Of a stretch of DNA of 64,000 nucleotides, positions 33,251-48,701 are shown in pieces; position 1 is the stretch's first letter, and each line of letters opens with the position of its first letter. Position numbers and translations under genes: made by a program. The notes beneath the pieces were generated by a model, which saw only the letters and a program-made list of their open reading frames with translations, searched no databases and was not told where the DNA came from. The stretch covers positions 806,001 to 870,000 of the forward strand of contig NZ_JAIQDJ010000001.1 in NCBI RefSeq assembly GCF_020034655.1, given 5' to 3'. The stretch is from Thermomonas beijingensis (GTDB lineage Bacteria > Pseudomonadota > Gammaproteobacteria > Xanthomonadales > Xanthomonadaceae).

Positions 33251-34210
33251 TCAGCCCAGGCTGGCCAGCCACTCGTCGTCGCTGCCCTCGTTGATGTCGG
33301 CGAACAGCGGGCTGGAGAAATAGCGCTCGCCGGTGTCCGGCAGCATCGCCAGCAGCACGCTGCCTTCCGGTGCGGTTTCGGCGATCTGCAGCGCGGTGGC
33401 GGCAGTGGCGCCGGCGGAGATGCCGACGAAAATGCCTTCCTCGGTCGCCAAGCGGCGTGCGGTGGCGAAGGCGTCGTCGTCGCTGACGGTGCGCAGTTCG
33501 TCATACGCATTGCGATTGAGCACGGCAGGTACGAAGTCCGGCGTCCAGCCCTGGATTTTGTGCGGCTTCCATTCGTCGCCTTTCAGCAGTGCCGCGCCGG
33601 CAGGTTCAGTACCGATGATGCGCACATCCGGGCGCGCCACTTTCAACACTTCGCCGACGCCGGTCAGAGTGCCGCCACTGCCCCAACCACTGACGAAATA
33701 ATCCAGCCGCTGGCCGGCGAAATCGCGCAGGATTTCGGTGGCGGTGGTGCTGCGGTGATAGGCCGGGTTGGCGGGATTGGTGAATTGACTGGCCCAGAAC
33801 CAACCGTGTTTTTCGGCAAGTTCCTTGGCTTTTTCCACCATCCCGGTACCGCGGGCGGCGGCGGGGGTCAGGATGACTTTGGCACCGTAGGCGCGCATGG
33901 CCTTGCGGCGCTCGATGGAGAAGGTTTCGGTCATCACCGCCACGAATTTGTAGCCGCGTGCCGCCGCCACCATCGCCAGCGCAATGCCGGTGTTGCCGGA
34001 GGTGGCTTCCACAATGGTATCGCCTGGCTTCAGCAGGCCGCGCTGTTCGGCATCCAGCACGATCCCCAGCGCCAGCCGGTCCTTGACCGAGCCACCGGGA
34101 TTGAAGGCTTCGGCCTTCACATAGACGCTGACATGCGCAGGTGCCAGCCGATTGAGTTTGATGATGGGGGTGTTGCCGATGGTGGCGGTGATGCTGTTGT
34201 AGAGGGCCAT
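33251..34210 (-). CDS. cysK: Cysteine synthase A (O-acetylserine sulfhydrylase)
   Basis: CysK makes cysteine from O-acetylserine and sulfide using PLP. The 319-aa protein starts MALYNSITATIGNTPIIKLN, with the PLP lysine in NPGGSVKDRLALG (Lys43), EATSGNTGIALAM (phosphate cup) and the VSGWGSGGTLTGVGEVL loop. Start ATG at 34210. A longer frame upstream reaches cysG and is rejected. It lies 40 bp downstream of cysG on the same strand, so siroheme synthesis and cysteine synthesis are likely one operon facing cysB. Confidence 0.96.
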   Translation of the reverse strand: MALYNSITATIGNTPIIKLNRLAPAHVSVYVKAEAFNPGGSVKDRLALGIVLDAEQRGLLKPGDTIVEATSGNTGIALAMVAAARGYKFVAVMTETFSIERRKAMRAYGAKVILTPAAARGTGMVEKAKELAEKHGWFWASQFTNPANPAYHRSTTATEILRDFAGQRLDYFVSGWGSGGTLTGVGEVLKVARPDVRIIGTEPAGAALLKGDEWKPHKIQGWTPDFVPAVLNRNAYDELRTVSDDDAFATARRLATEEGIFVGISAGATAATALQIAETAPEGSVLLAMLPDTGERYFSSPLFADINEGSDDEWLASLG

Positions 34211-34250
34211 GTGGGCGGTGTCCTTGTGATGGCGAATGCGGGAAGAAAGA

Positions 34251-35708
34251 TCAGGCGGCGTGGGCGAGCAGCGGCGGTTGACAGCGCGCATCGGCAGCGG
34301 TCAGCGGCGGCGCGCCAAACCAATGCAGCTGGGTGGCCAATGCGGCCACTTCGCCGATGATGAGCAGTGCCGGTGCCAGCACGGCGTGAAGCCGGGCCAG
34401 CTCGGGCAGTTCAGCCAAGCTGCCGGCCACCACGCGCTGCTGTGGGCGGCTGCCGTGTTCGATCAAGGCAAACGGCGTGCTGACTGCGCAGCCGTGGGCG
34501 ATCAATTTGTCGCGCAGGGCAGACAGGCCTGTCACGCCCATGTAGAACGCCAGGGTTTGCTGCGGTTTGGCCAGCGCGGTCCAGTCGTGTTCGGTCGCGC
34601 CGGATTTGCCTTGTGCGGTCAGGATGCGCAGCGATTGCGCATGCGCGCGATGGGTCAGCGGGATCCCTGCATACGCCGCGCAAGCCACTGCCGCGGTGAT
34701 GCCGGGGACCACTTCATAGCCGATGCCTGCGGCGCGCAGGGCTTGCAGTTCTTCGCCGCCGCGGCCGAACACGAACGGATCGCCACCTTTCAAACGCACC
34801 ACGCGCTTGCCGGCATTGGCCAATTCAATCATCAGTGCGTGGATGCGCGCCTGGGTGGCATCGTGATCGCCGCCAATGTGTTTGCCCACTTCAATTCGCT
34901 CGGCATCGCGGCGTGCCAACGCCAGTACCTCGGCACTGACCAGGCGGTCGTGCAGGATGACATCGGCATCATTCAACACCCGCAGCGCACGCAGTGTCAG
35001 CAGGCCGGGGTCGCCGGGACCTGCACCCACCAGCGCCACGCTGCCTTGCACATACCTTGCACCAGCGTACAACTCGGCCTCGATTGCGTGCTGCGCCGCC
35101 ACTGCTTGGCCGCGCCGCAGCAGCGCCTGCGCCGGGCCAGTCAATACCCGCCGGAAGAATGTGCGGCGTGCGGACAGGTCCGGCAGGCGGTTGCGAATGC
35201 GGCCGCGCAATTGGCTGAGCAATTGCGCCAGTGCGCCCACCGCATCATCAAACTGAAGCTCCAATTGCTCGCGTAGATGACGCGCCAACATGGGCGATGC
35301 GCCGCCGCTGGAAATGGCAATCTGCAACGGCCCGCGTTGCACCCGCGCCGGCAGCTGCGCGCTGGCCAGTGCGGCATCGTCCACCACATTGGCCCACACC
35401 TGCCGCGCCTGCGCAGCATCGGCCACGGCGCGGTTGACGCCGGCATCGTCGGTGGCGGCAATCACCAGCCATGCGCCCTCCAGTTGCGTGGGGGCGAAGG
35501 TGGTGGCGAGGTGGGTGATGTGCCGGTGCGATACCAGCGCCGCCAGCCCTGGTTCCAGTGCATTGGCCACCACCTGCACGGTGGCCCCCGCCTCCAGCAA
35601 GGCCGCGATTTTGCGGGCTGCAACGGCACCGCCACCGACCACCAGCACGCGGCGGCCGCGCAGGTCGAGAAACAGCGGAAACAGCGGGGGCGGGGGTGCG
35701 GTTTGCAT
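34251..35708 (-). CDS. cysG: Siroheme synthase CysG (multifunctional)
   Basis: A 485-aa fusion that makes siroheme for sulfite reductase. The N-terminal dehydrogenase/ferrochelatase domain (about 1-205) begins [21 protein letters not shown] and includes [19 protein letters not shown]; the C-terminal SUMT domain (about 215-465) has [46 protein letters not shown] and [20 protein letters not shown]. Its siroheme product is used by CysI encoded 2 kb away. The start ATG is 151 bp from the divergent cysB start. Confidence 0.96.
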
Positions 35709-35761
35709 CCCGTCACGCTAGGCCTGTTGGCGGGGACATGGAAATAGCGGGCTGGATTTTA

Positions 35762-35782
35762 CTTATGCACTTATGGCATAAG
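35762..35782. promoter_or_regulatory. LysR-type operator between cysG and cysB (candidate CysB box)
   Basis: CTTATGC (35762-35768) and GCATAAG (35776-35782) form a perfect inverted repeat with a 7-bp centre, fitting the T-N11-A pattern of LysR-type sites. It lies in the divergent cysG/cysB region, about 50 bases upstream of the cysB -10 box, so it could serve both autoregulation of cysB and activation of cysG-cysK. Confidence 0.6.
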
Positions 35783-35811
35783 CCTTGACTAGGAATGCTT
35801 GCAGACTCCGA

Positions 35812-35843
35812 TATAATCAATCGCTATATTCGAATGTAGCGAT
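35812..35843 (+). promoter_or_regulatory. cysB promoter -10 and downstream inverted repeat
   Basis: A perfect TATAAT is present at 35812-35817. The only good -35 match, TTGACT (35785-35790), is 21 bp away, too far for a strong sigma-70 promoter, suggesting activator dependence. Just after it, ATCGCTA (35820-35826) and TAGCGAT (35837-35843) form a perfect 7-bp inverted repeat in the predicted leader. Confidence 0.5.
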
Positions 35844-35859
35844 ATATGAGTGCCATGCC

Positions 35860-36831
35860 ATGACCCTGACCCAGCTTCGCTATCTTGTTGCCATCGCCGA
35901 TTCCAACTTCAACATCACCCAGGCGGCCGAGCGCGTGCACGCGACCCAGCCGGGGCTGTCCAAGCAGCTCAAGCAGCTGGAAGATGAGTTGGGTTTCCAA
36001 TTGTTTTTGCGCAAGGGCCGCAGCTTGGAAGGGGTGGCTCCGGCGGGCGTCAAGATCATCGACAGCGCCCGCAAGATCCTCGCCGAGGCGGCCAATATCC
36101 GCAGTTATGCGTCCAACGAGCGCGGCGAATTTCGCGGCCGCCTGTTGCTGGCCACCACCCACACGCAAGCGCGCTATGTGTTGCCGAAGGTGATTGCCGA
36201 CGTCACCCGTCGCTACCCGCACGTCAGCGTGGACTTGTTTGCCGCCGGTGATGCCGAGGTGTTGGAGAAATTGGACGAAGCCGATTTCGGCCTGATCAGC
36301 ACCGCCGGCAGTACCCCGCAAACCAATGGCGTAGCGGTGCCGTTGTTCCGCTGGCGGCGCGTGTTGCTGGTGCAAAAAACACACCCGTTGGCGACCAGGA
36401 AGCGGGTGCCCACCTTGCTGGAATTGGCGCGCTATCCGTTGATTTCGTATGAATCTTCGACCTTGCCGGAATCCTCCTTGCAGCGTGCGTTTGCGGCGGT
36501 AGGCGTGCAGCCCCAGATTGCGATGACCGCGCGTGATGCCAACCTGATCAAGGCCTACGTACGCACCGGACTGGGTGCGGGCTTGCTGGCCGAAATGGCG
36601 GTGGGTGAGCGGGAAGACGATGACCTGCGGGTGATCGACGCGCCGCTGGAGCTCCCCGAGTGCATCACCTGGGCGGTGGTGCCGCGTGGCCGCGTACTGC
36701 GCGAATACGCACTGGAGCTGTTGCATGGCCTGGCCCCGCACATGGATCGGCATGACTTGCGCCGTATTCTGGAAGGCAACCAGCCGCCGGAGTGGCCGGA
36801 ATTGCCGCGTTGGCAGGCGGAACAGTCATAG
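35860..36831 (+). CDS. cysB: LysR-family sulfur regulator CysB
   Basis: CysB activates the sulfate-assimilation genes and responds to N-acetylserine and sulfide. The 323-aa protein has an N-terminal winged HTH: MTLTQLRYLVAIADSNFNIT, QAAERVHATQPGLSKQLKQL, ELGFQLFLRKGRSLEGV; the LysR substrate domain follows, with ATTHTQARYVLPKVIADVT (the Thr-His-Thr loop that binds the ligand). These match CysB/Cbl rather than other LysR families. The start at 35860 removes 25 unlikely residues. It is divergent from cysG-cysK and convergent with cysH, whose stop is 5 bp away. Confidence 0.95.
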   Translation: MTLTQLRYLVAIADSNFNITQAAERVHATQPGLSKQLKQLEDELGFQLFLRKGRSLEGVAPAGVKIIDSARKILAEAANIRSYASNERGEFRGRLLLATTHTQARYVLPKVIADVTRRYPHVSVDLFAAGDAEVLEKLDEADFGLISTAGSTPQTNGVAVPLFRWRRVLLVQKTHPLATRKRVPTLLELARYPLISYESSTLPESSLQRAFAAVGVQPQIAMTARDANLIKAYVRTGLGAGLLAEMAVGEREDDDLRVIDAPLELPECITWAVVPRGRVLREYALELLHGLAPHMDRHDLRRILEGNQPPEWPELPRWQAEQS

Positions 36832-36836
36832 CGCCC

Positions 36837-37598
36837 TCACAAATCAAAATGCAGCCCGCATTCGCGGCGCAGGCCGAAGAAGCGGGTGCTGGAGGCGTCC
36901 ATGCCCGGTTGCAATGGGCGAGTGGTGTGCACGTCTCCTACCGAGACGTAGCCTTGTTGCAGTAGCGGGTGTTCGGGCAAGTCGTGTTGCAGGATGTAGG
37001 CGCCGATATCGATATCCGACCAGTCTGCAATCGGGTGGAATTTGAAGCGGCCATCCTTGATTTCAAGAATGGCGATGTGCTTGCGCGATGCCGATTGCTC
37101 GCGGCGCAGGCCGGCATGCCAGCAGCGCACATTCAAATCTTGCAGGGCACGTTGCATCGGTTGCACTTTGCGCAGCTGGTTGTAACGGGCGATGCCGTCG
37201 CTGCCGGCGTCCCACAGCTTGCCCAGGCGGGTTTCCATCCAACTGCTACTCAGCTGTGCTTGATAGACCTGCAAGTTCAGCCCGAGCAGGCCAGTGAGTT
37301 GGTCGGCGTAGCGGTAGGTTTCCGGAAACAGATAGCCGGTATCGACCATGATCACGGGGATGTTGGGCGCAGTCGTTGCAAAAAGATGCAGCGAGACCGC
37401 CGACTGCACACCAAAACTGGTCGAAAGTGCGTGCACGCCGGGCAGGTGTTGCAGTGCCCATTGGATGCGTTGTTGTGCATTCAATGGAATGAGCGTGGCA
37501 TTGAGTTCGGCCAAATCGTCTGCGGTGAGCGATGCCGGGTCAAGTGCGCGTGCAGACACGGAAACGGGGGCGAGATGTGGGGCGAGTTGGGCGTTCAT
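36837..37598 (-). CDS. cysH: Phosphoadenylyl-sulfate (PAPS) reductase
   Basis: CysH reduces PAPS to sulfite with thioredoxin. The 253-aa sequence shows [15 protein letters not shown] (P-loop-like PP-motif), [36 protein letters not shown] and the catalytic C-terminal ECGLHFDL (Cys247). The CC and CxxC cluster ligands of APS reductases are missing, so it is the PAPS type and requires an APS kinase, which is not in the window. The ATG overlaps the cysI stop, so it is the last gene of cysJIH. Confidence 0.95.
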
Positions 37599-39304
37599 GG
37601 CGACACGTGGGGTACAACGCGAACATGGGTGGGATAGGGTGGCAGCGCGACGACTTCGGCGCGATGCAGGAAGTCGCCGAAGTGTTCATCGGGCTGGCGT
37701 TCTGCGGCATAACGGGCCAGCAGCGGGTCAAGGGCTTCGATGATCTGTGCTTCGGTGATGTTGTCACGGTACAAGGTGTTGAGCCGGGTGCCGCGATGAT
37801 CGCCGCCCAGCATCAGGCTGTAGCGGCCAGGGGCCTTGCCGACCAGCGCAATTTCCGCCAGGTACGGGCGCGAGCAGCCATTCGGGCAGCCGGAAATGCG
37901 CAGCACGATGGGCGTATCGCGCAGGCCGTGTTTGACCAACAGCGGCTCCATCACGGCGAGCAAGGTGGGCAGGTAGCGTTCGGCTTCGGCCATCGCCAAG
38001 GCGCAAGTGGGCAGCGCCACGCAGGCCACGGCGCTGCGCGCCAGCGCGGTGGGGGCGTTGTTCTCGCGATCCAGCTGGTACTGCGCGACCAAGGCGTCGA
38101 TCTGTGCGCGCTGGGCCTCGGGGACGCCGGCGATGATCACGTTCTGGTTGCAGGTCATGCGAAATTGCCCGGTATGTATCTTGGCGATTTCACGCAGGCC
38201 GGTGAGCAGCGGGCGACCGTCTTCAAAGTCGGCAATGCGCCCGGACGGCAGTGACAGGGTGAGGTGCCACAGCCCGTTTTCGCCTTCCACCCAACCAAAG
38301 CGGTCGCCGTTGTGGTCGAAGTGATACGGGCGTGCGGCTTGCAGGGTGAAGCCGGCGCGTGCTTGCATCATCGCCACGATCTTGTCGCTGCCGTGATCGT
38401 CGATGGTGTATTTGAAGCGGGCGTGCTTGCGGTCCTCGCGGTCACCCAAATCCCGTTGCACGGTAATGGCGGCTTCGGCGATGGCGAACACTTGCTCGGG
38501 GCTGACAAAACCAATCACATTGGCCACGCGCGGGTAGTGTGCGGCGATGCCGTGGCTGGCACCCATGCTGCCGCCAATGGCGACATTGAAGCCGCTCAAG
38601 TTGCCGGTTGCATCAACGATGGCAATCAGGCCCAAGTCATTGGCGAACACGTCCACATCGTTCAGTGGGGGCACTGCCACCGCGATTTTGAATTTACGTG
38701 GCAGGTAGGCATCGCCGTAGATCGGTTCGTGCTCAACACCGCTTTCGGCAACCTTGTCTTCGTCCAACCAGATTTCATAATACGCACGCGTGGCGGGTTT
38801 GAAATGCGCGGACAAGCGTTGTGCCCAATCGTGTACTTGCGCATGCAATGCCGATTGCTGCGGGTTGCTGGAGGCCAGTACATTGCGATTGACATCGCCG
38901 CAAGCGGAAATGGTGTCCATCGCCGCCGCATTGATCGCGGCCATGGTGGCTTTCAGATCCCGCTTGATGACGCCATGGATCTGGAAGGTCTGGCGGGTGG
39001 TGACGCGCAGCGAATGGTTGGCATACGTCGTGGCGATGGCGTCCAGCCCCAGCCATTGCTGCGGTGTGAACACGCCGCCCGGCGCGCGGATGCGGATCAT
39101 GAATTGATGCGCAGGTTCCAGTTTCTGGCGGCGACGTTCGTCACGCAGGTCGCGGTCGTCTTGCTGGTAGCTGCCGTGAAACTTGATGGTGCGCTGGTCT
39201 TCAAACCCCAGCGAGCCGGTGCTGGCATCGTGCAAGCCCGCGACCATGCCGCCACGCAGATGGCGACTTTCCAGTTTGATTTTTTCGACGGAAGGATGGC
39301 TCAT
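37595..39304 (-). CDS. cysI: Sulfite reductase hemoprotein beta-component
   Basis: CysI reduces sulfite to sulfide in six electrons using siroheme and a 4Fe-4S cluster. The 569-aa protein has the active-site loop [28 protein letters not shown] and [10 protein letters not shown]; the cluster/siroheme Cys residues are in [20 protein letters not shown] and [13 protein letters not shown] use the ATG at 39304 ([18 protein letters not shown]), which matches the usual N terminus; a TTG at 39328 overlapping the cysJ stop would add eight residues. Its TGA overlaps the cysH start. Confidence 0.96.
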
Positions 39305-39324
39305 GGTGTTGTTCTCGTTGCGGC

Positions 39325-41169
39325 TCAATACACATCGCGGGCGTAGCGCCCTTCGCGTTGCAGTTGGCTCAAATATTCGGATGCCGCATCGGCATCGCCA
39401 CCGTTGTGAGTGCTTGCGATGTCAAGCAAGGCCTCATGCACATCCTTGCCCATGCCAATCGCGCCGCAAACATACAGATGCGCGCCGCGTTGCAGCCAGT
39501 CATAGACCTCGCGACCGTGTTCGCGCAGGCGGTCTTGCACGTAGATTTTTTGCGATTGATCGCGCGAGAACGCCAGGTCCAGACGATGCAGTTCGCCTTT
39601 GGCCAATGCCTCTTGCCATTCGGTTTGATACAGAAATTCGGTATTGAAATGGCGCGCACCGAAGAACAGCCAGTTGCGGCCGGTTGCGCCGGTTTCGGCG
39701 CGTTCCTGCACAAAACCACGGAACGGCCCCACGCCGGTGCCGGGGCCAATCATCAGGATGTCGCGGCTGCTGTCGGCGGGGACGCGGAAGCGCTCATTGG
39801 GCTCGATAAACACCGGCACGCTGGCATCTTCATCCAGCGCAGCGAGAAAGTTGCTGGCCGCGCCGAGGTGATCAGTACCGTGTGCCGAATAGTGCAGTAC
39901 ATCGAAGGTCACATGCGCTTCTTCGCCCACCCGCTTGCGGCTGGAGGCGATGGAATACAAGCGTTGCACTTGCGGGCGCAAGCTGGCCACCAAGGTTGCG
40001 GCCTCCCATTGCGCTGGCCAGCGCCGCAGTACATCGATTACTTGGTGCGTACCCAGCAACGTGGCAAGTTCGGCATTGCCAGGTTGCAGCAGTTGCGCCA
40101 AGTCCTGCGCGCCGCTGCGTTCGGCCACGCTGGCAAGCAGCGGGCGTGACAGCCTGGTCAACTCACGATGACTGCTCAACCATTCCGAAAGCGGCAGGCT
40201 GTGGCCGTCGTGATCGACCAAGGCATCGCCGTGCAGGCCGGTTGCGACCAATACCGCGGCCACCAAGCACTGCGGGTTGCGATGCCGAATGCCCAGTGCG
40301 TCGCCGGGTTCATAGCTCAGGCCCGAGCCTTCCAGTGACAGCTCAAGATGACGGATATCCTTGTCTACCAATGCATACCGGCGGAACCCGGTGCCTTTGA
40401 ATTCGCGTCCGGTGATGCGTTGATTGGCCAACACGCTGGCGGCAAACGGGGCGTCCTGTGTCCATGTGGGTGCTGCATGCGGACGCAGCGGTGTCACCGT
40501 TGCAAGATGCGCGGGTGCTGCGGGTTTCAGGAATTCCTTGGCGTGCGCCAGTGCGTGTTCGCGCCACGGCGTGGCGATGCTGTCGATGTCCAAATCGGCT
40601 TCGCCCAACGGCAGCACGCGGCTGGCACCGAGTTCGGCCAAACGTGCATCCAGCGTGCGGGCGATGCCGCAAAAGTCGGCATAACTGGAATCACCCAAGC
40701 CCAGCACTGCAAATTTGAGCTGCGGTAATTTTGGTGCGCGCTTGCCCAGCAGGAATTCGGTGAAGCCAATCGCGTCATCCGGCGGGTCCCCTTCACCTTG
40801 GGTGCTGATGATCAGGTACAGCAGCTTTTCATTCGCCACTTCACGGGTGGCATAGGCATCGGCACGCAGCAGCCGCGCCGGCAGGCCGGCGGCTTCCAAT
40901 TGTGCATGCAGTGCTTCGGCGGCGCGCTTGGCATTGCCGGTCTGGCTGCCATACACAATGGTGGCTGGCTGCACTGCAATTGGCGTGGGCTGTGCCGCAG
41001 CGGTCGCCAGTGCCAGGCCGGTGGGTGTGAGTGCACGCGCCATCCCGGCCAAATAGCCAGAGGCCCACAGCAGGGCGCTGCGGTCGGCATCGGCGGCAAA
41101 TTGCGAAAGCAATCGGGCTTGATCGCCGGTCAACGGCGCAGGTAGTGGGGCGGCAGTGGCGTGCGACAT
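39325..41169 (-). CDS. cysJ: Sulfite reductase flavoprotein alpha-component
   Basis: CysJ passes electrons from NADPH through FAD and FMN to CysI. The 614-aa protein has an N-terminal flavodoxin domain ([50 protein letters not shown]), an FAD domain ([20 protein letters not shown]) and a NADPH domain ([19 protein letters not shown], ending [14 protein letters not shown]). The ATG at 41169 is the first plausible start; the ORF runs 35 codons further upstream. It heads the cysJIH operon. Confidence 0.96.
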
Positions 41170-41446
41170 GGCGGCAGGGCGTGAAGGATGCCGATGCAGG
41201 CTAGGCGCTGGCTTGTCGCAGGGGAAAGGAGGGCTGGTTATGCCGATATGGGATATGGCATGCATTGCTGGCATAGCGTGGGTGCGTGCGGGGTTTTCTT
41301 ACGTCATGGCGAGGCAAACACGGGGGGGCGATGTGCGTTATTCGCCGATCGTCTGGACATCGGCACAGCGCGATGCTGTCCCTGCCGGCCCGCACCCCGC
41401 GCCGCCGGATCACCTAAACCGCACTACAACCTGCAAGGAATCCGTC
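41170..41446. other. Divergent intergenic region cysJ / comEA-like
   Basis: These 277 bp hold no convincing gene; the reading frame on the + strand (41183-41446) looks like random sequence. Visible signals are the GGCAT-type repeats at 41238-41277 and a good Shine-Dalgarno (AAGGA, 41435-41439) for the comEA-like gene. Promoters for both divergent genes must lie here. Confidence 0.6.
41238..41277. promoter_or_regulatory. Candidate CysB-type operator upstream of cysJ
   Basis: ATGCC (41240-41244) and GGCAT (41257-41261) form an inverted repeat with inner ATAT arms, and TGGCAT repeats again at 41269-41274. The motif resembles the one between cysG and cysB. It lies about 70-110 bp before the cysJ start, a usual place for a CysB activator site. 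It is predicted by pattern only. Confidence 0.45.
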
Positions 41447-41800
41447 ATGAAATTTCTGAACACGTTGCTGTCCACCCTGGTGTTGTCGCTGGCGCTGGCC
41501 GGCGCCGCCATCGCTGGCGAAACCGTCAATATCAATAGTGCCGACGCCGCCACCCTCGATCGCGTACTGGTCAATATCGGCCCATCCAAAGCGCAGGCCA
41601 TCGTGGAGTACCGCAAGGCCCACGGCGCATTCCGCAGTGCCGAGCAACTGGCCGAAGTCAAAGGCGTGGGCCTGAAGACGGTGGAAAAAAACCGCGATCG
41701 CATCAGTTTGGGGGGGGCTGCGCCGGCACGCCCGGCAGCCACCGCCAGCCGCCCGCAACAAGTCGCCAGTGCGCAGCCCAAGCCGGTGGCGCGGCGCTGA
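41447..41800 (+). CDS. ComEA-like helix-hairpin-helix DNA-binding protein
   Basis: A 117-aa exported protein: a signal peptide (LLSTLVLSLALAGAAIAG), then a tandem helix-hairpin-helix domain, ETVNINSADAATLDRVLVNI (residues about 24-43) to KGVGLKTVEKNRDRI, and a Pro/Ala/Arg-rich basic tail (ARPAATASRPQQVASAQPKPVARR as a position cue, residues 93-117). It is the type of periplasmic DNA-binding protein that pulls incoming DNA during transformation. No other competence gene is nearby. The start ATG follows AAGGA by seven bases. Confidence 0.9.
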   Translation: MKFLNTLLSTLVLSLALAGAAIAGETVNINSADAATLDRVLVNIGPSKAQAIVEYRKAHGAFRSAEQLAEVKGVGLKTVEKNRDRISLGGAAPARPAATASRPQQVASAQPKPVARR

Positions 41801-41860
41801 ACATTGGCGTGCTCCGCTGCTGGGATCTGTGGGGAACAGCACCCGGCAAGGCAAGCCCGG

Positions 41861-41890
41861 ACGCGCCTGACCGCAGTGGGTCAGGCGCGT
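41861..41890. terminator. Perfect 12-bp stem-loop between comEA-like and TonB-like genes
   Basis: ACGCGCCTGACC (41861-41872) and GGTCAGGCGCGT (41879-41890) pair perfectly over a GCAGTG loop, at the convergent junction. There is no T-run, so it may act as a rho-independent-like or RNA-stabilising hairpin in both directions. Confidence 0.75.
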
Positions 41891-41897
41891 TGCCGTG

Positions 41898-42614
41898 TCA
41901 GCGACGCAGATTGAATTCGATCGGCACCAACCCCAGTGCTTGCACGGCCTTGCCGTTTTGGGTCGCCGGCTGGAAGCTCCAGCGCCTCAGCACTTGCAGC
42001 CGCGCCGCTTCGTCCAATTCACGGTGGCCACTGCTGCGTGAAATGCTGACCTCGATCGGCTGGCCATTGATATCCACCAGCACCTGCAATAACACCGTGC
42101 CGCTCAGCTGACGCTGCAAGGCCGCACGCGGATACACCGGTGGCGGGGCATTGCGATACGCCAGTTGCATGGGCGTGGGGGGAACGTTGGGCGGAATGAG
42201 GCTATCGCCATGCGAGTCCCCGTCATCGGCTGTTAGCGTGGTGATCTGAGTGTTGCCGGTATCACTGATTACCTGAGCCGCCGGCGTGGTGTCCGGGCTG
42301 CGCGTCACGCTGGGATGAGCCGGTGGGTTGATCGGCTGCGGCGGTTGCGGGTGCGTGATCGGGGTGATCTCCACAATCACCGGTTCCGGTGGCTTGACGA
42401 TGCTGCGCACCACAGGGTTGTGACTGGGAGGATCCTGCGCCGGGGTCAGTGGAATTGACATCGGCACCATCAGCAGGCCGAACAGGATCAGATTGAACGT
42501 CAACGTTCCACTCATGGTGAAAATGCGGGACGGATCCAGCTTGGGTTTTGCAGCTGGGTTCAACAGTGCAAAACCGGTGGCGCGGGATAGGGCAAAGGCA
42601 GGTGCGCGAACCAT
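41898..42614 (-). CDS. TonB-like energy transducer
   Basis: A 238-aa protein with one N-terminal transmembrane segment (around 36-55, LTFNLILFGLLMVPMSIP), a Pro-rich periplasmic spacer (EITPITHPQPPQPINPP) and a C-terminal TonB domain (YPRAALQRQLSGTVLLQVLV; ARLQVLRRWSFQPATQNGK). TonB domains bind the TonB box of outer-membrane receptors and pass on proton-motive force. The ATG at 42614 follows AGGAGAT by six bases; a longer frame to 42662 lacks a ribosome site. No exbB or exbD is next to it, so it must share these or serve another role. Confidence 0.85.
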   Translation of the reverse strand: MVRAPAFALSRATGFALLNPAAKPKLDPSRIFTMSGTLTFNLILFGLLMVPMSIPLTPAQDPPSHNPVVRSIVKPPEPVIVEITPITHPQPPQPINPPAHPSVTRSPDTTPAAQVISDTGNTQITTLTADDGDSHGDSLIPPNVPPTPMQLAYRNAPPPVYPRAALQRQLSGTVLLQVLVDINGQPIEVSISRSSGHRELDEAARLQVLRRWSFQPATQNGKAVQALGLVPIEFNLRR

Positions 42615-42852
42615 GGTCGATCTCCTGTGCAGGTGGACGTACGCTGTACACAAACCATGCAACGGGCGAGCATGTGCAATGGGGTTAGGACGCCACCGTT
42701 TGCACGCTTTGACGCTGCGCCATTACGTGCGCCGTGCAAAGCAGTGAACGATGATCGGTCGTGTTTGTACGACGAGCGGCGGTTGTCATCCGGATTTGGT
42801 GAGAACAGATCTCTGTCCGTTGGCCGGTGGGTACGCGCAGCTTTTCGTGCAA

Positions 42853-42868
42853 GGCATAAGCGCATGCC
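42853..42868. promoter_or_regulatory. GGCAT-N6-ATGCC repeat upstream of the Rrf2-sulfate cluster
   Basis: GGCAT (42853-42857) and ATGCC (42864-42868) are inverted repeats. The octamer GGCATAAG (42853-42860) is identical to the right half of the cysG/cysB operator (35775-35782). It ends ten bases before the -35 box of the Rrf2 promoter, a usual place for an activator such as CysB. Confidence 0.5.
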
Positions 42869-42878
42869 AATCGGGATA

Positions 42879-42906
42879 TTGACAAGCCGAAATGATTTCC
42901 TATAAA
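42879..42906 (+). promoter_or_regulatory. Sigma-70 promoter of the Rrf2-led sulfate cluster
   Basis: TTGACA (42879-42884, perfect -35) is followed after 16 bp by TATAAA (42901-42906, one mismatch from consensus). Transcription would start near 42913, only about five bases before the ATG at 42918. It is the best -35/-10 pair I saw in this region. Confidence 0.7.
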
Positions 42907-42919
42907 AAATATAGGAAAT
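42895..42919. promoter_or_regulatory. Perfect palindromic operator over the Rrf2 promoter and start
   Basis: ATTTCCTATA (42895-42904) and TATAGGAAAT (42910-42919) are exact inverted repeats with an AAAAA centre. The site covers the -10 box, the predicted transcript start and the first two bases of the ATG. It is AT-rich and symmetric like known Rrf2-family (IscR, NsrR, CymR) sites, and its position predicts autorepression. Confidence 0.7.
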
Positions 42920-43373
42920 GCTGACAAACAAAGCCAAATACGGACTTCGCGCAATGTGTGCGCTGGCTGCACTGCCTGCAGGCGAGCGCATGCAGGCGCA
43001 TGTGCTGGCCGAGCGCGCCAACATCCCGGCCAAATTTCTGGAGGCTATCTTGTTGGATCTGCGGCGTGCCGGTTTTGTTGCCAGTCGGCGTGGCGCGCAG
43101 GGCGGGCATGCACTGGCCAAACCGGCGCAAGACATCATGGTGGGTGATCTGATTCGTGCCATCGATGGGCCACTGGCGCCGGTGCGCTGTGCCAGCATGA
43201 CCGCTTATGCGCCTTGCACGGATTGCGCCGATCCTGACACCTGCGCGATTCGGGCATTGATGTGGGAAACCCGGCAAGCGTTGTGCAGTGTGCTGGATCG
43301 GCGCAGCTTGACGGTATTGAGTCGACGTGCAGGCAACGAAGCATGGATGCGTCAGTTGGGGGGCTCGCCATGA
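42918..43373 (+). CDS. Rrf2-family transcriptional regulator (sulfate cluster)
   Basis: A 151-aa regulator with the Rrf2 winged helix: MLTNKAKYGLRAMCALAALP, AERANIPAKFLEAILLDLRR and FVASRRGAQGGHALAKPA. Four Cys (91, 100, 103, 109) lie in the cluster-binding region. Their spacing (C-x8-C-x2-C-x5-C) differs from the IscR C-x5-C-x5-C, so an Fe-S cluster is possible but not certain. The gene begins almost at its predicted transcript start, has a palindrome over its promoter and overlaps the YezD gene by four bases. It heads the sulfate uptake cluster, so a CymR-like sulfur-sensing role is likely (inference). Confidence 0.88.
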   Translation: MLTNKAKYGLRAMCALAALPAGERMQAHVLAERANIPAKFLEAILLDLRRAGFVASRRGAQGGHALAKPAQDIMVGDLIRAIDGPLAPVRCASMTAYAPCTDCADPDTCAIRALMWETRQALCSVLDRRSLTVLSRRAGNEAWMRQLGGSP

Positions 43374-43564
43374 CATCAATCCAGCCCGATGCTACCCGGA
43401 TGCCGGTGGCTGCACTGCATTCGCCACTCGAAGCGGAGGTGCTGCGTGCGATCCGCGACACTGCTTACGGCACGATTGAGGTGGTTGTTCATCAGTCGCG
43501 TATTGTCCAGATCACCCGCAGTGAGAAACTCCGTTTCGATTCACCGCAGCACGACCCACGCTGA
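43370..43564 (+). CDS. YezD/DUF2292 family small protein
   Basis: A 64-aa protein starting MTSIQPDATRMPVAAL, whose ATG overlaps the stop of the Rrf2 gene. The C-terminal core, EVLRAIRDTAYGTIEVVVHQ followed by SRIVQITRSEKLRF, has the YGxxxxxVxxxxIVQIxRxEK(I/L)R pattern of the DUF2292 (YezD) family: one helix and a small beta hairpin. The function of the family is unknown. As I recall, members often sit next to sulfate or sulfonate genes, and the close coupling to Rrf2 here supports a sulfur role. Reading it from the upstream start at 43262 would cut into the regulator and is rejected. Confidence 0.8.
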   Translation: MTSIQPDATRMPVAALHSPLEAEVLRAIRDTAYGTIEVVVHQSRIVQITRSEKLRFDSPQHDPR

Positions 43565-43637
43565 GCGCCGCGTCCCAACTCTGCCGACCGGACCACCGGA
43601 GGCATGTCTTCCACCTTCAATAGCAGGAATCGAAGTC

Positions 43638-44855
43638 ATGCCGTTTCACTTCCTATCGCGGCCACCCCAATCTCCGCATCCGCGTCTGGTTGCGCTTGTC
43701 ATTACCCTTGCCTTGGCCCCATCGCTGGGGCACGCAGGTGAGATCAAGCTGCGCGGATTGGTACAGGCCGATACCCGTAGCTTCATGAATGACTCCGCAA
43801 AAAACGATGGATTCTTGTGGCGACGGCTGGAGCCCAGCATTGAGGGCAATTGGGGCACATGGCTGGGGTTCCGGGTTAATCCACAGTTCGCTGGTGACAG
43901 GGTCACCCTCAATGAGGCGTATATCGATTTGAAATTTGATCCGCGTGCCACAGTGCGGATTGGCAAATCCAAACCACCCTTCGGGTTGGAGCGTTTGCAG
44001 TCGAGTACAAGTACTGCACAAGTGGAGCTGGGGCTGCCGTCGGAACTTGCACCAGGCCGTGACATCGGGGTGCAATTGCAGGGCAGCGTACTGGGTGGTG
44101 CCCTGGATTACGGGATCGGGGCATTCAATGGCACGGTTGATGGGCGCGATGCTGTTGCCGGCAATCCCGACGGCGAATTCGAATATGCAGGCCGGTTGTT
44201 CTGGCAGCCACGCAAGCACGCACGCGGTGAGTGGGGCAACCTGGGGTTGGGTGTGGCCGCTACTGTTGGTAATACCCATGGCAATGGAAGCAACTTCTTG
44301 CCGCGTTATCGCACGCCGGGGCAGGCGCAATTTTTTGGCTATGGAAGCAATGTGGCTGCCGATGGCCAACGGTTACGCAAGACCGTGCAGGGGTATTGGT
44401 ATCGCGGGCCGTTGGGGTTGCTGGGTGAATGGGTCAGTAGTGCGCAGACGCTACGCGTGATCAGTGGAGCCGGTGCAGGGTCACGTGCCACGTTGGATAA
44501 CCACGCTTGGCAGATCGCGGCGGGCTGGGTGTTGACTGGCGAGGACGCGGGCTATCGGGGTGTGGTGGCACCGGCGTCTCCATTTGCGATCGGACAACCC
44601 GGATGGGGGGCATTGGAGGCGACCGTGCGCTATGGCCAGCTGCAGATGGATGCTGCTGCATTTCCTTATTTCGCCAATGGCGCGACATCGGCACAGGCGG
44701 CGCATGGCTGGGGGGTGGCACTCAATTGGTACTTGACCGGCAACCTCAAACTGATGGCCAACTACACCATGACCAAATTCGATGGGTGTGCCGCCGCCGG
44801 CGGTCGCCGCCCGCAAGAGCGGGTGCTGTTCACCCGCGCACAGCTGACTTTCTGA
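43638..44855 (+). CDS. OprO/OprP-type phosphate-selective-like porin
   Basis: A 405-aa outer-membrane protein with signal peptide (LVALVITLALAPSLGHAG). The mature part is rich in alternating beta strands, with FMNDSAKNDGFLWRRLEPSI, AYIDLKFDPRATVRIGKSKP (a typical OprP signature) and a C-terminal aromatic residue for Bam recognition (TRAQLTF). OprP-type porins favour anions such as phosphate or polyphosphate. Its place between yezD and the sulfate-binding protein gene suggests sulfate instead. The ATG at 43638 follows AGGA; the frame upstream belongs to another gene and is rejected. Confidence 0.87.
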   Translation: MPFHFLSRPPQSPHPRLVALVITLALAPSLGHAGEIKLRGLVQADTRSFMNDSAKNDGFLWRRLEPSIEGNWGTWLGFRVNPQFAGDRVTLNEAYIDLKFDPRATVRIGKSKPPFGLERLQSSTSTAQVELGLPSELAPGRDIGVQLQGSVLGGALDYGIGAFNGTVDGRDAVAGNPDGEFEYAGRLFWQPRKHARGEWGNLGLGVAATVGNTHGNGSNFLPRYRTPGQAQFFGYGSNVAADGQRLRKTVQGYWYRGPLGLLGEWVSSAQTLRVISGAGAGSRATLDNHAWQIAAGWVLTGEDAGYRGVVAPASPFAIGQPGWGALEATVRYGQLQMDAAAFPYFANGATSAQAAHGWGVALNWYLTGNLKLMANYTMTKFDGCAAAGGRRPQERVLFTRAQLTF

Positions 44856-44920
44856 AGCATTCGTTCGCAACCTGAGCACTGGCTATCCAGTGGCCTGATG
44901 ACATCCCGGGAAATACGACG

Positions 44921-45943
44921 ATGAACAAATTCGGATACAACGTGGCAGGTGTCCTGCTGTTTACATTGCTGGCTTTGCTGCCGGCAGCTTCCTATGCGGC
45001 AGCGAAGGACAAGGAGTTGCTGAATGTTTCTTATGACCCCACCCGTGAGCTGTATGCCGATATCAACCAGGCCTTCGCCGTGGACTGGAAGCGGCAGACA
45101 GGTGAGTCGCTGACACTGCGCGCCTCGCACGGCGGCTCTGGCAAACAGGCGCGTGCCGTGCTGGATGGCCTGGACGCCGATGTGGTGACGTTGGCGCTGG
45201 CGGCCGACATCGATGTGCTGGCCGAGCAAGGCAAGTTGTTACCCATCAACTGGCAAACCCGGTTGCCGCATAACAGTGCGCCTTACACATCGGCCATCGT
45301 GTTTTTGGTGCGCAAAGGCAACCCCAAGGGCATCAAGGACTGGGGTGATCTGGTCAAGCCGGGGATCGGGGTGATCACGCCTAATCCGAAGACTTCAGGC
45401 GGTGCGCGCTGGAATTATCTGGCGGCTTGGGTATGGGCCTCACGCCAGTATCGCAGTGGCAGCAAGGTGCTGGAGTACATGGGGAAATTGTTCCGCAACG
45501 TGCCGGTACTGGATACGGGAGCACGCGGAGCAACCACGACGTTCGTGGAACGCGGAATTGGTGATGTGTTGATCGCTTGGGAAAATGAGGCGTTGTTGAC
45601 CGTCAACGACCCACAGCTGCGTGGCAAGTTCGAGCTGGTGGTGCCTTCGGTCAGCATCAAGGCCGAACCACCGGTGGCGTGGTTGGACAAAAACACCACC
45701 AAGCATGGTACCGGCAAGCAGGCAGAAGCGTATCTGCGGTTTCTGTATTCACCCACAGGGCAACAAATCGCAGCCCGCCATTACTATCGCCCAACCGAGC
45801 CTGCCAATGTGCCAGCCGCGTTATTGAAGCCGTTTGCGCCGATCAAGCTGGTCACCATCAATGATGCGTTTGGTGGATGGAAGAAAGCGCAGGCGGCGCA
45901 TTTCGGTGACGGCGGTTTCTTCGATCGAATCTATCGACCCTGA
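44921..45943 (+). CDS. sbp: Sulfate ABC transporter, periplasmic sulfate-binding protein
   Basis: Sbp/CysP captures sulfate (or thiosulfate) in the periplasm and delivers it to CysTW. The 340-aa protein has a signal peptide ([16 protein letters not shown]) and the family blocks [48 protein letters not shown] and [19 protein letters not shown]. The sulfate is held by main-chain NH and Ser/Gly side chains in HGGSG and TSGGARW. Sequence alone does not say whether it prefers sulfate or thiosulfate. cysT follows 16 bases later. Confidence 0.93.
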
Positions 45944-45959
45944 CCGACGCAAGGTGATG

Positions 45960-46811
45960 ATGGCATTGAACCAATCAGCGGCAGCCGCGCGTGGCCGCAA
46001 TCCGTTACCGGGCTTTGGCCTGAGTCTTGGGTTGGGCATGGCTTGGCTGGGCGTGGTGGTGGTGCTGCCATTGGCTGCACTGGCGGTGCGTGCGACGGGG
46101 ATGGGCGCGCACGCGTGGCTACGCGCAATCAACGATGCACGGGTGCAGGCAGCACTCAAGCTGAGCTTTTCCACTGCATTCTGTGCGGCTGTGGTGGCAT
46201 CGCTGGTGGGTGTGCTGATCACCTGGGTCATCGTGCGTTATCGCTTTCCCGGGCGGCGTTTGCTGGATGCACTGGTGGACTTGCCGTTTGCATTGCCAAC
46301 CGCCGTGGCGGGGATTGCGCTGACTGCGATTTATGCCCCCACCGGCTGGGTCGGCAAGCTGTTGGCGGCCTGCAACTTCAAAATTGCCTATGCCACACCC
46401 GGTATCGTGCTGGCCCTGGTGTTCATTGGTTTGCCATTTGCGGTACGTACCCTGCAGCCGGTGCTGGAAGCATTGGGGCGCGAGCCGGAGGAAGCTGCGG
46501 CGTCGCTGGGGGCCAATCGGGTCACCACGTTTCGGCGTGTCATCATCCCCGAGTTATTGCCGGCATGGTTGACAGGGTTTTCGCTGGCATTTGCGCGAGG
46601 TTTGGGCGAGTACGGTTCGGTCATCTTCATTGCCGGGAACCTGCCCTACAAGACCGAAATTGCGCCGCTGCTGATTACCATCCGCTTGGAAGAGTACGAC
46701 TACAACGGCGCGGTAGCGATTGCCGCGTTGTTGCTGGTCGCTTCCTTCTTGAGCCTGCTGCTGATCAACCTGCTGCCACTGTTATTCCAGCGCGGGGGCG
46801 GACATGACTGA
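45960..46811 (+). CDS. cysT: Sulfate ABC transporter permease CysT (CysU)
   Basis: A 283-aa inner-membrane permease with six hydrophobic segments. The EAA loop that meets CysA is seen as LEALGREPEEAAASLGA, and FARGLGEYGSVIFIAGN is typical of CysT. Two ATGs lie side by side at 45957 and 45960; I use 45960, five bases after AAGG. The long upstream part of the frame overlaps sbp and is rejected. Its stop overlaps the cysW start, so the channel subunits are coupled. Confidence 0.94.
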   Translation: MALNQSAAAARGRNPLPGFGLSLGLGMAWLGVVVVLPLAALAVRATGMGAHAWLRAINDARVQAALKLSFSTAFCAAVVASLVGVLITWVIVRYRFPGRRLLDALVDLPFALPTAVAGIALTAIYAPTGWVGKLLAACNFKIAYATPGIVLALVFIGLPFAVRTLQPVLEALGREPEEAAASLGANRVTTFRRVIIPELLPAWLTGFSLAFARGLGEYGSVIFIAGNLPYKTEIAPLLITIRLEEYDYNGAVAIAALLLVASFLSLLLINLLPLLFQRGGGHD

Positions 46812-47667
46812 GGGGCCTCGATGTAACGATGACCCACTGCGCGAACCCGGATGGTTGCGCTGGTTGCTGATCCTGACTGCGGTTGCGGCGATTGGCTTGC
46901 TGGTGCTGCTGCCGTTGGTCATGGTACTGGGGGCGGCCTTTGGCAAGGGCTTTCATGCCTGGTGGCAGGCACTGGTGGCGCCTGACGCGCGCAGTGCATT
47001 GGCATTGACCCTGTTCACCGCGGCCATCGTGATACCAGTCAACGCCGTGTTTGGTGTGCTGGCGGCGTGGGCACTCACGCGGTTTTCGTTCCGCGGCAAA
47101 CGCGTGTTGCTGGCGCTGATCGATTTGCCATTCGCGGTATCGCCGGTGGTGGCTGGCCTTTGCCTGGTGCTGTTATTTGGCAGTGCAGGTTGGTTTCATG
47201 CATGGTTGCAGGCGCATGACATCAAAGTGCTGTTTGCACGTCCCGGCATTGTTTTGGCGACGTTGTTTGTCACCTTTCCGTTTGTGGTGCGCGAGCTGGT
47301 GCCGTTGATGCAGCAACAAGGTGCCGATGAGGAGCTGGCTGCGCGCTCGCTTGGGGCTAGTGCATGGACGATGTTCCTCCGCGTCACCCTGCCGAAGATC
47401 AAATGGGGTTTGTTGTACGGCGTGCTGCTGTGTGCCGCCCGGGCGATGGGCGAGTTTGGTGCGGTGTCGGTGGTGTCGGGCCATATCCGTGGCATGACCA
47501 ACACCTTGCCGCTGCATATCGAGATTCTCTACAACGAATTTGATGCCACGGCTGCATTTGCAGTGGCCTCCCTGCTGGCAGGGTTATCCCTGCTCACCCT
47601 GGTGTTGAAAGTCTGGCTGGAAGCGCGGCATGGCGACGCGCTTGCGCAATCTCATAGGCGGCATTGA
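46804..47667 (+). CDS. cysW: Sulfate ABC transporter permease CysW
   Basis: A 287-aa permease with six hydrophobic segments and the EAA loop [20 protein letters not shown]. The stretch [19 protein letters not shown] and [20 protein letters not shown] near the C terminus are diagnostic of CysW. It forms the membrane channel with CysT. The ATG overlaps the end of cysT by eight bases, and the stop overlaps a possible TTG start of cysA. Confidence 0.94.
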
Positions 47668-47669
47668 TC

Positions 47670-48701
47670 ATGCAATTGACGATTTCATCCTTGCACAAGC
47701 GCTATCCCGGCGTGGCGGCGCTCGATGGCGTCGATTTGGATATTCGCTCGGGTGAGCTGGTCGCGTTGCTGGGGCCATCGGGGTCTGGCAAGACCACGCT
47801 GCTGCGCGTGATTGCCGGCTTGCTGCATGCCGATGCAGGACGCGTGTTGTTTGGCGAAAACGATGCCACCGGGTTAAGTCTGCGCGAGCGCAATGTGGGT
47901 TTTGTGTTCCAGCATTACGCATTATTCCGGCATATGACTGTAGCCGAAAATATTGCGTTTGGTTTGCGCAGCCGTCCGCGTGCAAAACGCCCAGACAAGG
48001 CCAGTATTGCAAGGCGCGTGCAGGAGTTGTTGCAGCTGGTACAACTCCCCGAGCATGGTGGGCGCTATCCCGATCAGCTCTCCGGGGGACAAAAGCAGCG
48101 CATTGCGCTGGCGCGGGCACTGGCCATTGATCCGGCAGTGTTGCTCCTGGACGAGCCTTTTGGCGCGCTGGATGCCAAGGTGCGCATCGAACTACGGCGT
48201 TGGCTGCGAAAACTGCATGAGCAGACCGGGCAAACCACATTGTTTGTCACCCATGATCAAGAGGAAGCGCTTGAGTTGGCGGATCGGGTAGTGGTGATGC
48301 GGGCGGGCAAGGTCGAGCAGGTGGGTACACCCGATGCCATCTATCGCTCCCCAGCTTCGCCCTATGTGTTCGAATTCATTGGGCGGGCCAATGTATTGCA
48401 TGGGCAGGTGATCAACGGGCGTTTTTGCGCGGCGGGAGTGACGCTGGATGCCGGCGGGGTTGTTGATGGTCCGGCGCGATTGTATGCGCGGCCACATGAT
48501 GTGCAGTTGGCTGCGCCAGGGGCAGATACGTTGTCGCTGCAGGTGCGCGGGGTGCAGCGGTTGGGTGGGCGGCTAACCGCCGAATTTGCGCTGGGTGGGC
48601 AAGCGTTGGAACTGGAGACGTTGAACACTGCGGCCGTGCCGCTGCTGCCGGGTGAGCATGTCACAGTGCGCGTGGCCCGCTACCGGGTGTTTCCAACCTA
48701 G
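47670..48701 (+). CDS. cysA: Sulfate ABC transporter ATP-binding protein CysA
   Basis: The 343-aa ATPase drives sulfate import. Walker A is GPSGSGKTT (residues 35-43), then the Q loop [13 protein letters not shown], the signature [15 protein letters not shown], Walker [13 protein letters not shown] and the H loop [10 protein letters not shown]. The C-terminal region is a TOBE-like regulatory domain ([11 protein letters not shown]). The ATG at 47670 ([12 protein letters not shown]) is two codons inside a TTG that overlaps the cysW stop. It ends the sulfate transport cluster; a terminator follows. Confidence 0.95.

Follow-up and report, generated by a model that had tools for sequence, protein, structure and literature searches.

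We describe a conserved palindrome at the start of an rrf2 gene and propose that it is the operator at which the adjoining Rrf2 protein represses the sulfate-uptake operon headed by its own gene, a reading to which we assign a probability of roughly 85% from the sequence and its conservation. In the mechanism that we envisage, an Rrf2 dimer would bind ATTYCCTA-N9-TAGGRAAT, covering both the -10 element and the transcript start, and the bound dimer would block RNA polymerase, so that rrf2 itself and the co-directional oscA-porin-sbp-cysTWA genes would all be repressed. On a drop in a sulfur or Fe-S signal, the repressor would leave or change state and the operon would be transcribed; with transcription beginning about 5 nt before the ATG, rrf2 would be translated from a near-leaderless message. 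The features under discussion are collected in Table 1, with positions numbered along the whole 64-kb stretch of DNA that was analysed (the window).

Table 1 Features of the rrf2 promoter region and the surrounding sulfur genes.
Feature	Coordinates	Strand	Basis and remarks
CysB-like LysR regulator, same sulfur island	35860..36831	+	NF009325 470.9 bits (cut-off 482) and CysB model 268.8 (cut-off 436), both below
GGCAT-N6-ATGCC dyad, conserved upstream element, candidate activator (CysB-type) box	42853..42868	+	motif search
-35 TTGACA	42879..42884	+	sequence; TTGAC kept in several relatives
Candidate operator (Rrf2 box)	42895..42919	.	ATTTCCTA-N9-TAGGAAAT; palindrome, box conservation
-10 TATAAA	42901..42906	+	16-bp spacer, 11 bp from ATG; geometry shared with L003
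Predicted 5-nt leader AGGAA	42913..42917	+	inferred from -10 position; -10-to-ATG distance kept
rrf2, 151-aa Rrf2-family protein with C91, C100, C103 and C109	42918..43373	+	PF02082, TIGR00738, alignment
oscA-like small protein (DUF2292)	43370..43564	+	PF10055 42 bits (cut-off 22); OscA model 36, below 85
Porin_O_P outer-membrane porin	43638..44855	+	profile match; start codon chosen by us
sbp, sulfate-binding protein	44921..45943	+	profile match
cysT permease	45957..46811	+	profile match
cysW permease	46804..47667	+	profile match
cysA ATPase	47670..48701	+	profile match

A candidate operator at the start of rrf2

The palindrome spans positions 42895-42919 and reads ATTTCCTATA-AAAAA-TATAGGAAAT. 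The original prediction had described it as two exact 10-bp arms around an A5 centre, and re-reading the sequence bears this out, with 10/10 arm positions complementary. It had also placed the -10, the transcript start and the first bases of the coding sequence beneath the palindrome; the -10 and the predicted start are indeed covered, but of the ATG only the A and the T are.

Taken singly, the window palindrome is not rare. Perfect palindromes with 10-bp arms and a loop of 0-15 occur five times in the window, whereas 12 first-order Markov sequences contain 1.8 on average (range 0-4); the other four in the window are higher in G+C and hairpin-like. The significance of the palindrome comes from its conservation across genomes and not from the single sequence. 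A search of the host genome for further copies, as originally proposed, found the full palindrome to be single-copy with up to 3 mismatches allowed. The shorter box has one further place there, with 1 mismatch (G000:C6:83446), compared to two places for the reversed control.

Conservation of the box among orthologues

Among 395 genomes we found 52 family orthologues of rrf2 and used the upstream regions of 50 of them (G347 and G352 were left out), adding one order-level locus (L007) and four distant loci (L112, L119, L136 and L170). The four distant loci were chosen from a set of 80 after their scores (12-15) were known, so we report each count both with and without this group. The upstream regions share a 25-bp consensus box, ATTYCCTA-N9-TAGGRAAT, located upstream of the start codon or overlapping it. 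A box matching at least 12 of 16 positions is present in 50/55 regions, and in 32/37 after near-identical regions are dropped. Without the four distant loci these counts become 46/51 and 28/33, compared to 0.4% of mononucleotide shuffles reaching 12/16; the contrast between 28/33 and 0.4% is flattering, because the consensus was derived from the scored sequences themselves; the comparison of genomes with and without the orthologue, below, is less flattering in this respect. Three regions carry weak boxes of 10-11/16 (L052, L056 and L076), and the upstream regions of L068 and L070, scored against the consensus, have no box.

Across the 32 sites that score at least 12, the C at -8 and the G at +8 are invariant. 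The CCTA and TAGG blocks lie 5-8 from the centre, at distance 10 the T is retained in 30 sites and the A in 31, and the central bases vary; the A5 centre and the inner arm bases that make the window copy a perfect palindrome are variable among the orthologues.

These same sites speak to whether the palindrome works as an RNA hairpin (a 5' stabilising stem, an attenuator or a terminator) instead of a DNA operator. The window copy can fold as RNA, with a predicted energy of -8.5 kcal/mol, but over the 32 sites the arm pairs are frequently broken (pairs 9-12 in 16 to 23 sites, pair 2 in 12 and pair 4 in 8) and each half-site nonetheless holds its own consensus. We reject the hairpin reading on the strength of this broken pairing. 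Against it, too, transcription from the predicted start would begin within the right arm and take in only half of the palindrome, and no terminator-like site was found in the interval 42600-43700. A role in RNA is extremely improbable, and the DNA operator remains the preferred reading.

In three genomes (G160, G181 and G230; in the last at G230:C40:115289-115362, in L195), a second Rrf2-type box lies 51 bp upstream of the first. The arrangement suggests paired operators.

The box tracks the regulator and, in part, the sulfate genes

We scanned genomes with the pattern WTYCCTA-N9-TAGGRAW, allowing at most 1 mismatch; the scan took in 36 of the 52 family genomes with an orthologue plus G037, and 30 of 60 genomes without one. 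In raw counts over genomes that share ancestry, the box is present in 31/37 genomes with the orthologue versus 4/30 without it (4/25 for the more complete genomes lacking it), and Sbp is found in 6/6 genomes with the orthologue, the window's own included, versus 11/54 without. The box is located at rrf2 in 30 of the 37 orthologue-bearing genomes, and six of them have no place within 1 mismatch. Within the window's genus, again as raw counts, the box occurs in 4/4 genomes with the orthologue and 2/21 without. Two genomes of that genus (G010 and G018) have Sbp and no orthologue, and in these there is no box within 1 mismatch; their best box scores near sbp are 10 and 11 of 16.

These counts help to decide whether the site might belong to another regulator, for example the second Rrf2-family protein of the genome, with rrf2 merely one of its targets. 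The genome does encode a second Rrf2-type protein (G000:C2:111901-112215, about 33% identical), and Rrf2 operators are of a common general design. However, each of the 30 genomes lacking the orthologue has a weaker Rrf2-type match, and it is in these genomes that the box is scarce (4/30 versus 31/37). The scan of the 37 genomes also reveals no set of boxes elsewhere, which argues against another regulator, as does the inner half-site of the IscR type-1 site, which we take to differ from the box here. Control by a different protein is highly unlikely, and we keep to the adjoining Rrf2 protein as the regulator that would bind the box.

The 37 genomes contain 46 places that fit the pattern, 33 at rrf2 (three of them the second boxes) and 13 elsewhere, while the reversed-pattern control gives 29. 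There is no excess of boxes away from rrf2 in these 37 genomes (13 versus 29 in the reversed control). Because the boxes elsewhere do not rise above that control, the box looks like a local switch, with no sign of a wider regulon in the 37 genomes.

Several perfect boxes away from rrf2 were considered and set aside. Those in G340, G245 and G298 (L085, L087 and L089) were taken as chance, the ORF lists having nothing sulfur-related in a clear promoter position; the boxes of L085 and L087 are found downstream of an apparently SufT-like ORF. Another perfect box comes from a genome that lacks the orthologue (G025, L223:1501-1523); it lies inside a 442-aa reading frame and is probably also due to chance.

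The operon and its sulfur island

In the window, rrf2 heads a co-directional row, rrf2-oscA-porin-sbp-cysTWA, in which the ATG of the oscA-like gene overlaps the rrf2 stop; the row would be transcribed as one operon. It belongs to a sulfate-assimilation island at 33251-48701, where it follows cysK, cysG, the cysB-like gene, cysH, cysI and cysJ. A tonB-like gene on the minus strand (41898-42614) sits between cysJ and rrf2 in the window; in L187 and L188, cysJ and rrf2 are adjacent and divergent.

Sbp adjoins rrf2 in 18 of the 20 family and order stretches that were fetched, and the usual gene order in the fetched stretches is that of the window, with some losses. Among the genes searched, only a cysA-like ATPase stands beside rrf2 in L199 and L200. 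In G070, rrf2 is the last gene of its operon and its own box is missing; there the core CCTA-N9-TAGG can be seen by eye less than about 200 bp before sbp, with a full score below the listing threshold.

The Rrf2 protein and its presumed DNA contacts

The rrf2 product belongs to the Rrf2 superfamily, scoring 118.1 bits against PF02082 (cut-off 30) and 101.5 against TIGR00738 (cut-off 73.3). It misses the NCBIfam equivalog cut-offs for CymR (71.7 vs 195), IscR (63.6 vs 207.55), NsrR (59.4 vs 182) and RirA (49.3 vs 193), and the cut-off for the SUF system regulator TIGR02944 (suf_reg_Xantho; 55.4 vs 110.65). Its predicted structure has a mean pLDDT of 83.6, and the top structural matches are Rrf2 structures, with CymR ranking first (Z 16.4, rmsd 2.0, 126 residues aligned) and other Rrf2 structures within about 2.

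Four cysteines, C91, C100, C103 and C109, are invariant in 20/20 aligned orthologues, with the spacing C-x8-C-x2-C-x5-C; conserved loop cysteines of the kind expected for an Fe-S cluster Rrf2 regulator are thus found in 20/20 orthologues. Leaving its tail aside, the model is least certain where these four cysteines lie. Given that these invariant residues lie in the loop where NsrR holds its cluster (B. subtilis CymR holds none), an iron-sulfur or thiol signal is plausible for the rrf2 product. Our first guess for the signal is an Fe-S cluster or a thiol switch, and our second is a CymR-like cysteine link.

In size, the conserved 25-bp dyad, a putative site, falls within the range of about 23-29 bp for dyads of the Rrf2 superfamily. 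In the Rrf2-DNA complexes described in available excerpts of PMC9338935, base contacts fall about 4-8 from the centre, with IscR Glu43 at the C at -8, and a wing arginine (IscR Arg59, NsrR Arg60) contacts position 10. Residues 2-90 of the window protein match IscR residues 3-91 at equal length, placing E42 and R58 at Glu43 and Arg59, and both residues are invariant in 20/20 orthologues. Assuming a shared numbering register, the kept positions of the box fit the contacts in these excerpted complexes. The link between regulator and site, which had initially been offered as an inference, is well supported by these comparisons: the box tracks rrf2 and the sulfate operon across genera, is mostly missing where the regulator is missing, and fits the contact pattern of Rrf2 proteins.

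Several characterized members of the superfamily resemble this system in part. IscR of E. coli autorepresses its own operon. It shares the Rrf2 fold with the window protein, and E42 and R58 presumably correspond to the residues with which IscR, in the same excerpted account, reads DNA; it differs in its box, its target and its cysteine spacing. NsrR of Streptomyces coelicolor likewise shares the fold (Z 14.8) and has loop cysteines, as the protein here does; its operator has a 23-bp consensus, and it differs in using Cys93, Cys99 and Cys105 (PMC9338935, excerpts). CymR of Bacillus subtilis and Staphylococcus aureus, an Rrf2 repressor of cysteine metabolism, combines the Rrf2 fold with a sulfur-metabolism target, as here. 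In contrast to the protein with four invariant cysteines, however, B. subtilis CymR binds no cluster (PMC9338935, excerpts). A published Rrf2 protein of an unrelated bacterium, proposed as a sulfur-metabolism regulator in the part of its report that was available, where no box is described, is likened to ours by description only.

Promoter geometry and a predicted near-leaderless start

The rrf2 ATG lies at 42918-42920 in the context AGGAAAUG, and the reading frame begins MLTNKAKYGLRAM, with the same start in 20 aligned orthologues (one with GTG). An in-frame TAG at 42912-42914, upstream of this ATG, makes a start codon upstream of 42918 impossible in the rrf2 frame. From the position of the -10 we infer a transcript start near 42913, 7 bp downstream of it, which would leave AGGAA as a 5-nt leader.

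The promoter had been called strong in the original prediction, a label that is overstated for a -10 of TATAAA. By a plain count against the promoter consensus there are 11/12 matches, a level that about 0.1% of shuffled upstream regions attain. A stricter promoter scan leaves the rrf2 promoter unlisted because TATAAA lacks the final T, and lists one weak minus-strand site at 42937-42908.

A TTGACA/TATAAT-type promoter scoring at least 9 is found in 14/37 non-redundant upstream regions, compared to about 4% of shuffles. In 12 of these 14 regions, 7-14 nt separate the end of the -10 from the ATG, and the predicted start falls about 1-8 nt before it; leaving out the four picked distant loci, 11/12 regions have the -10 close to the ATG. 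The geometry of the window promoter is repeated exactly in L003, and the exceptions to a -10 near the ATG are L070 and L170. In the Lysobacter-type regions (L037, L039, L045, L049 and L065), the box lies on the ATG and the promoter scores 6-7 of 12. The near-leaderless start that had been predicted draws support from the promoter-to-ATG geometry that part of the family keeps, and would be a conserved design in that part of the family.

The relation of box to promoter also bears on the sign of regulation, since the Rrf2 protein could be an activator or a dual regulator at this site instead of a repressor. Some Rrf2 proteins, such as IscR, do activate at some promoters, and the box is kept in regions where a TTGACA-type promoter was not seen. 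In the window, however, the box sits over the -10 and the predicted transcript start, where repressors typically bind. Activation or dual control has little chance of being the right account, and repression remains the function that we would assign to the box.

A second conserved element upstream of the box

Unsupervised motif discovery in the sequence ahead of the box (35 regions; L068 and L170 were omitted) found GGCAT-N6-ATGCC-like sites, kept in many orthologues, with a log-likelihood of 152 from 40 restarts, compared to 37-50 in four shuffled control sets that had fewer restarts (12 each). In the two-box regions L036 and L040, the search picked the second Rrf2 box instead. The window copy, at 42853-42868, lies about 52 bp before the predicted transcript start, the usual place for a LysR activator. 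It may be an activator box, for which CysB would be the obvious candidate, and this second element may be important where the promoter is weak, as in the Lysobacter-type regions.

The dyad alone is common, with 22 exact copies in the genome. In a profile scan of the window, the rrf2 copy ranks fourth, and a weaker match before cysJ, at 41237, ranks tenth. Given the number of exact copies and this rank, we dropped the idea of a genome-wide role for the dyad.

A more elaborate reading is possible, although we hold it to be doubtful. The protein would define a distinct Rrf2 subfamily in which a C-x8-C-x2-C-x5-C loop acts as the sensor and couples sulfate import directly to the Fe-S or thiol state of the cell, and which opposes an upstream CysB-type activator on one promoter. 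The right half of the operator would contain the whole 5-nt leader, so that repressor binding, the transcript start and start-codon recognition would share the same bases.

Distant relatives

We also looked at 80 loci with rrf2-like genes, including rhizobial, Agrobacterium and Acetobacteraceae/Rhodospirillales-type loci; several of the named records are apparently already in the genome set and were not recounted. Ten of the 80 reach 13/16 before the gene, and Sbp was found in 18. The rhizobial loci mostly score 8-12, the Rhizobiales being mostly box-less before the gene, and two Agrobacterium loci score 13 by way of a differing sequence that is common to their relatives. L137, L142 and other Agrobacterium loci share a sequence resembling ATTCGCTAAAAACTACTTAGTAAGT, about 81 bp before the rrf2-like gene, with scores of 12-13; a rhizobial relative of the Rrf2 regulator may use it as its box. 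The remaining loci of the 80 are probably paralogues or users of other boxes.

In six Acetobacteraceae-/Rhodospirillales-type loci with Sbp downstream, the best matches within a 330-bp stretch around the start of sbp score 12, 12, 12, 11, 10 and 8, which is suggestive only as support for a box that follows the sulfate genes. One alphaproteobacterial contig (L170) has rrf2-oscA-porin-sbp with the box at -81 from the ATG (L170:922-946), a leadered promoter and a GGAGG-type ribosome site before the ATG. Transfer of the whole operon is a possible origin for this locus.

Discussion

Among the literature matches listed, no paper describes, for this family, a sulfate ABC operon under an Rrf2 regulator, and none deals with leaderless transcripts in Xanthomonas. 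In the excerpts available, a paper on sulfur in X. citri names CysB as the regulator, and the term Rrf2 does not occur (PMC4501297). Self-repression at this promoter would very probably be feedback control of an ordinary bacterial kind; its box is clear, and the branch of the Rrf2 family to which the protein belongs has been little described. For sulfate uptake in Lysobacteraceae, as the named records suggest, and in some other proteobacteria, the candidate operator offers a precisely defined box, and a regulator, that can be put to the test. It also provides a natural example of an operator set flush on a start codon, in which near-leaderless autoregulation may be tested.
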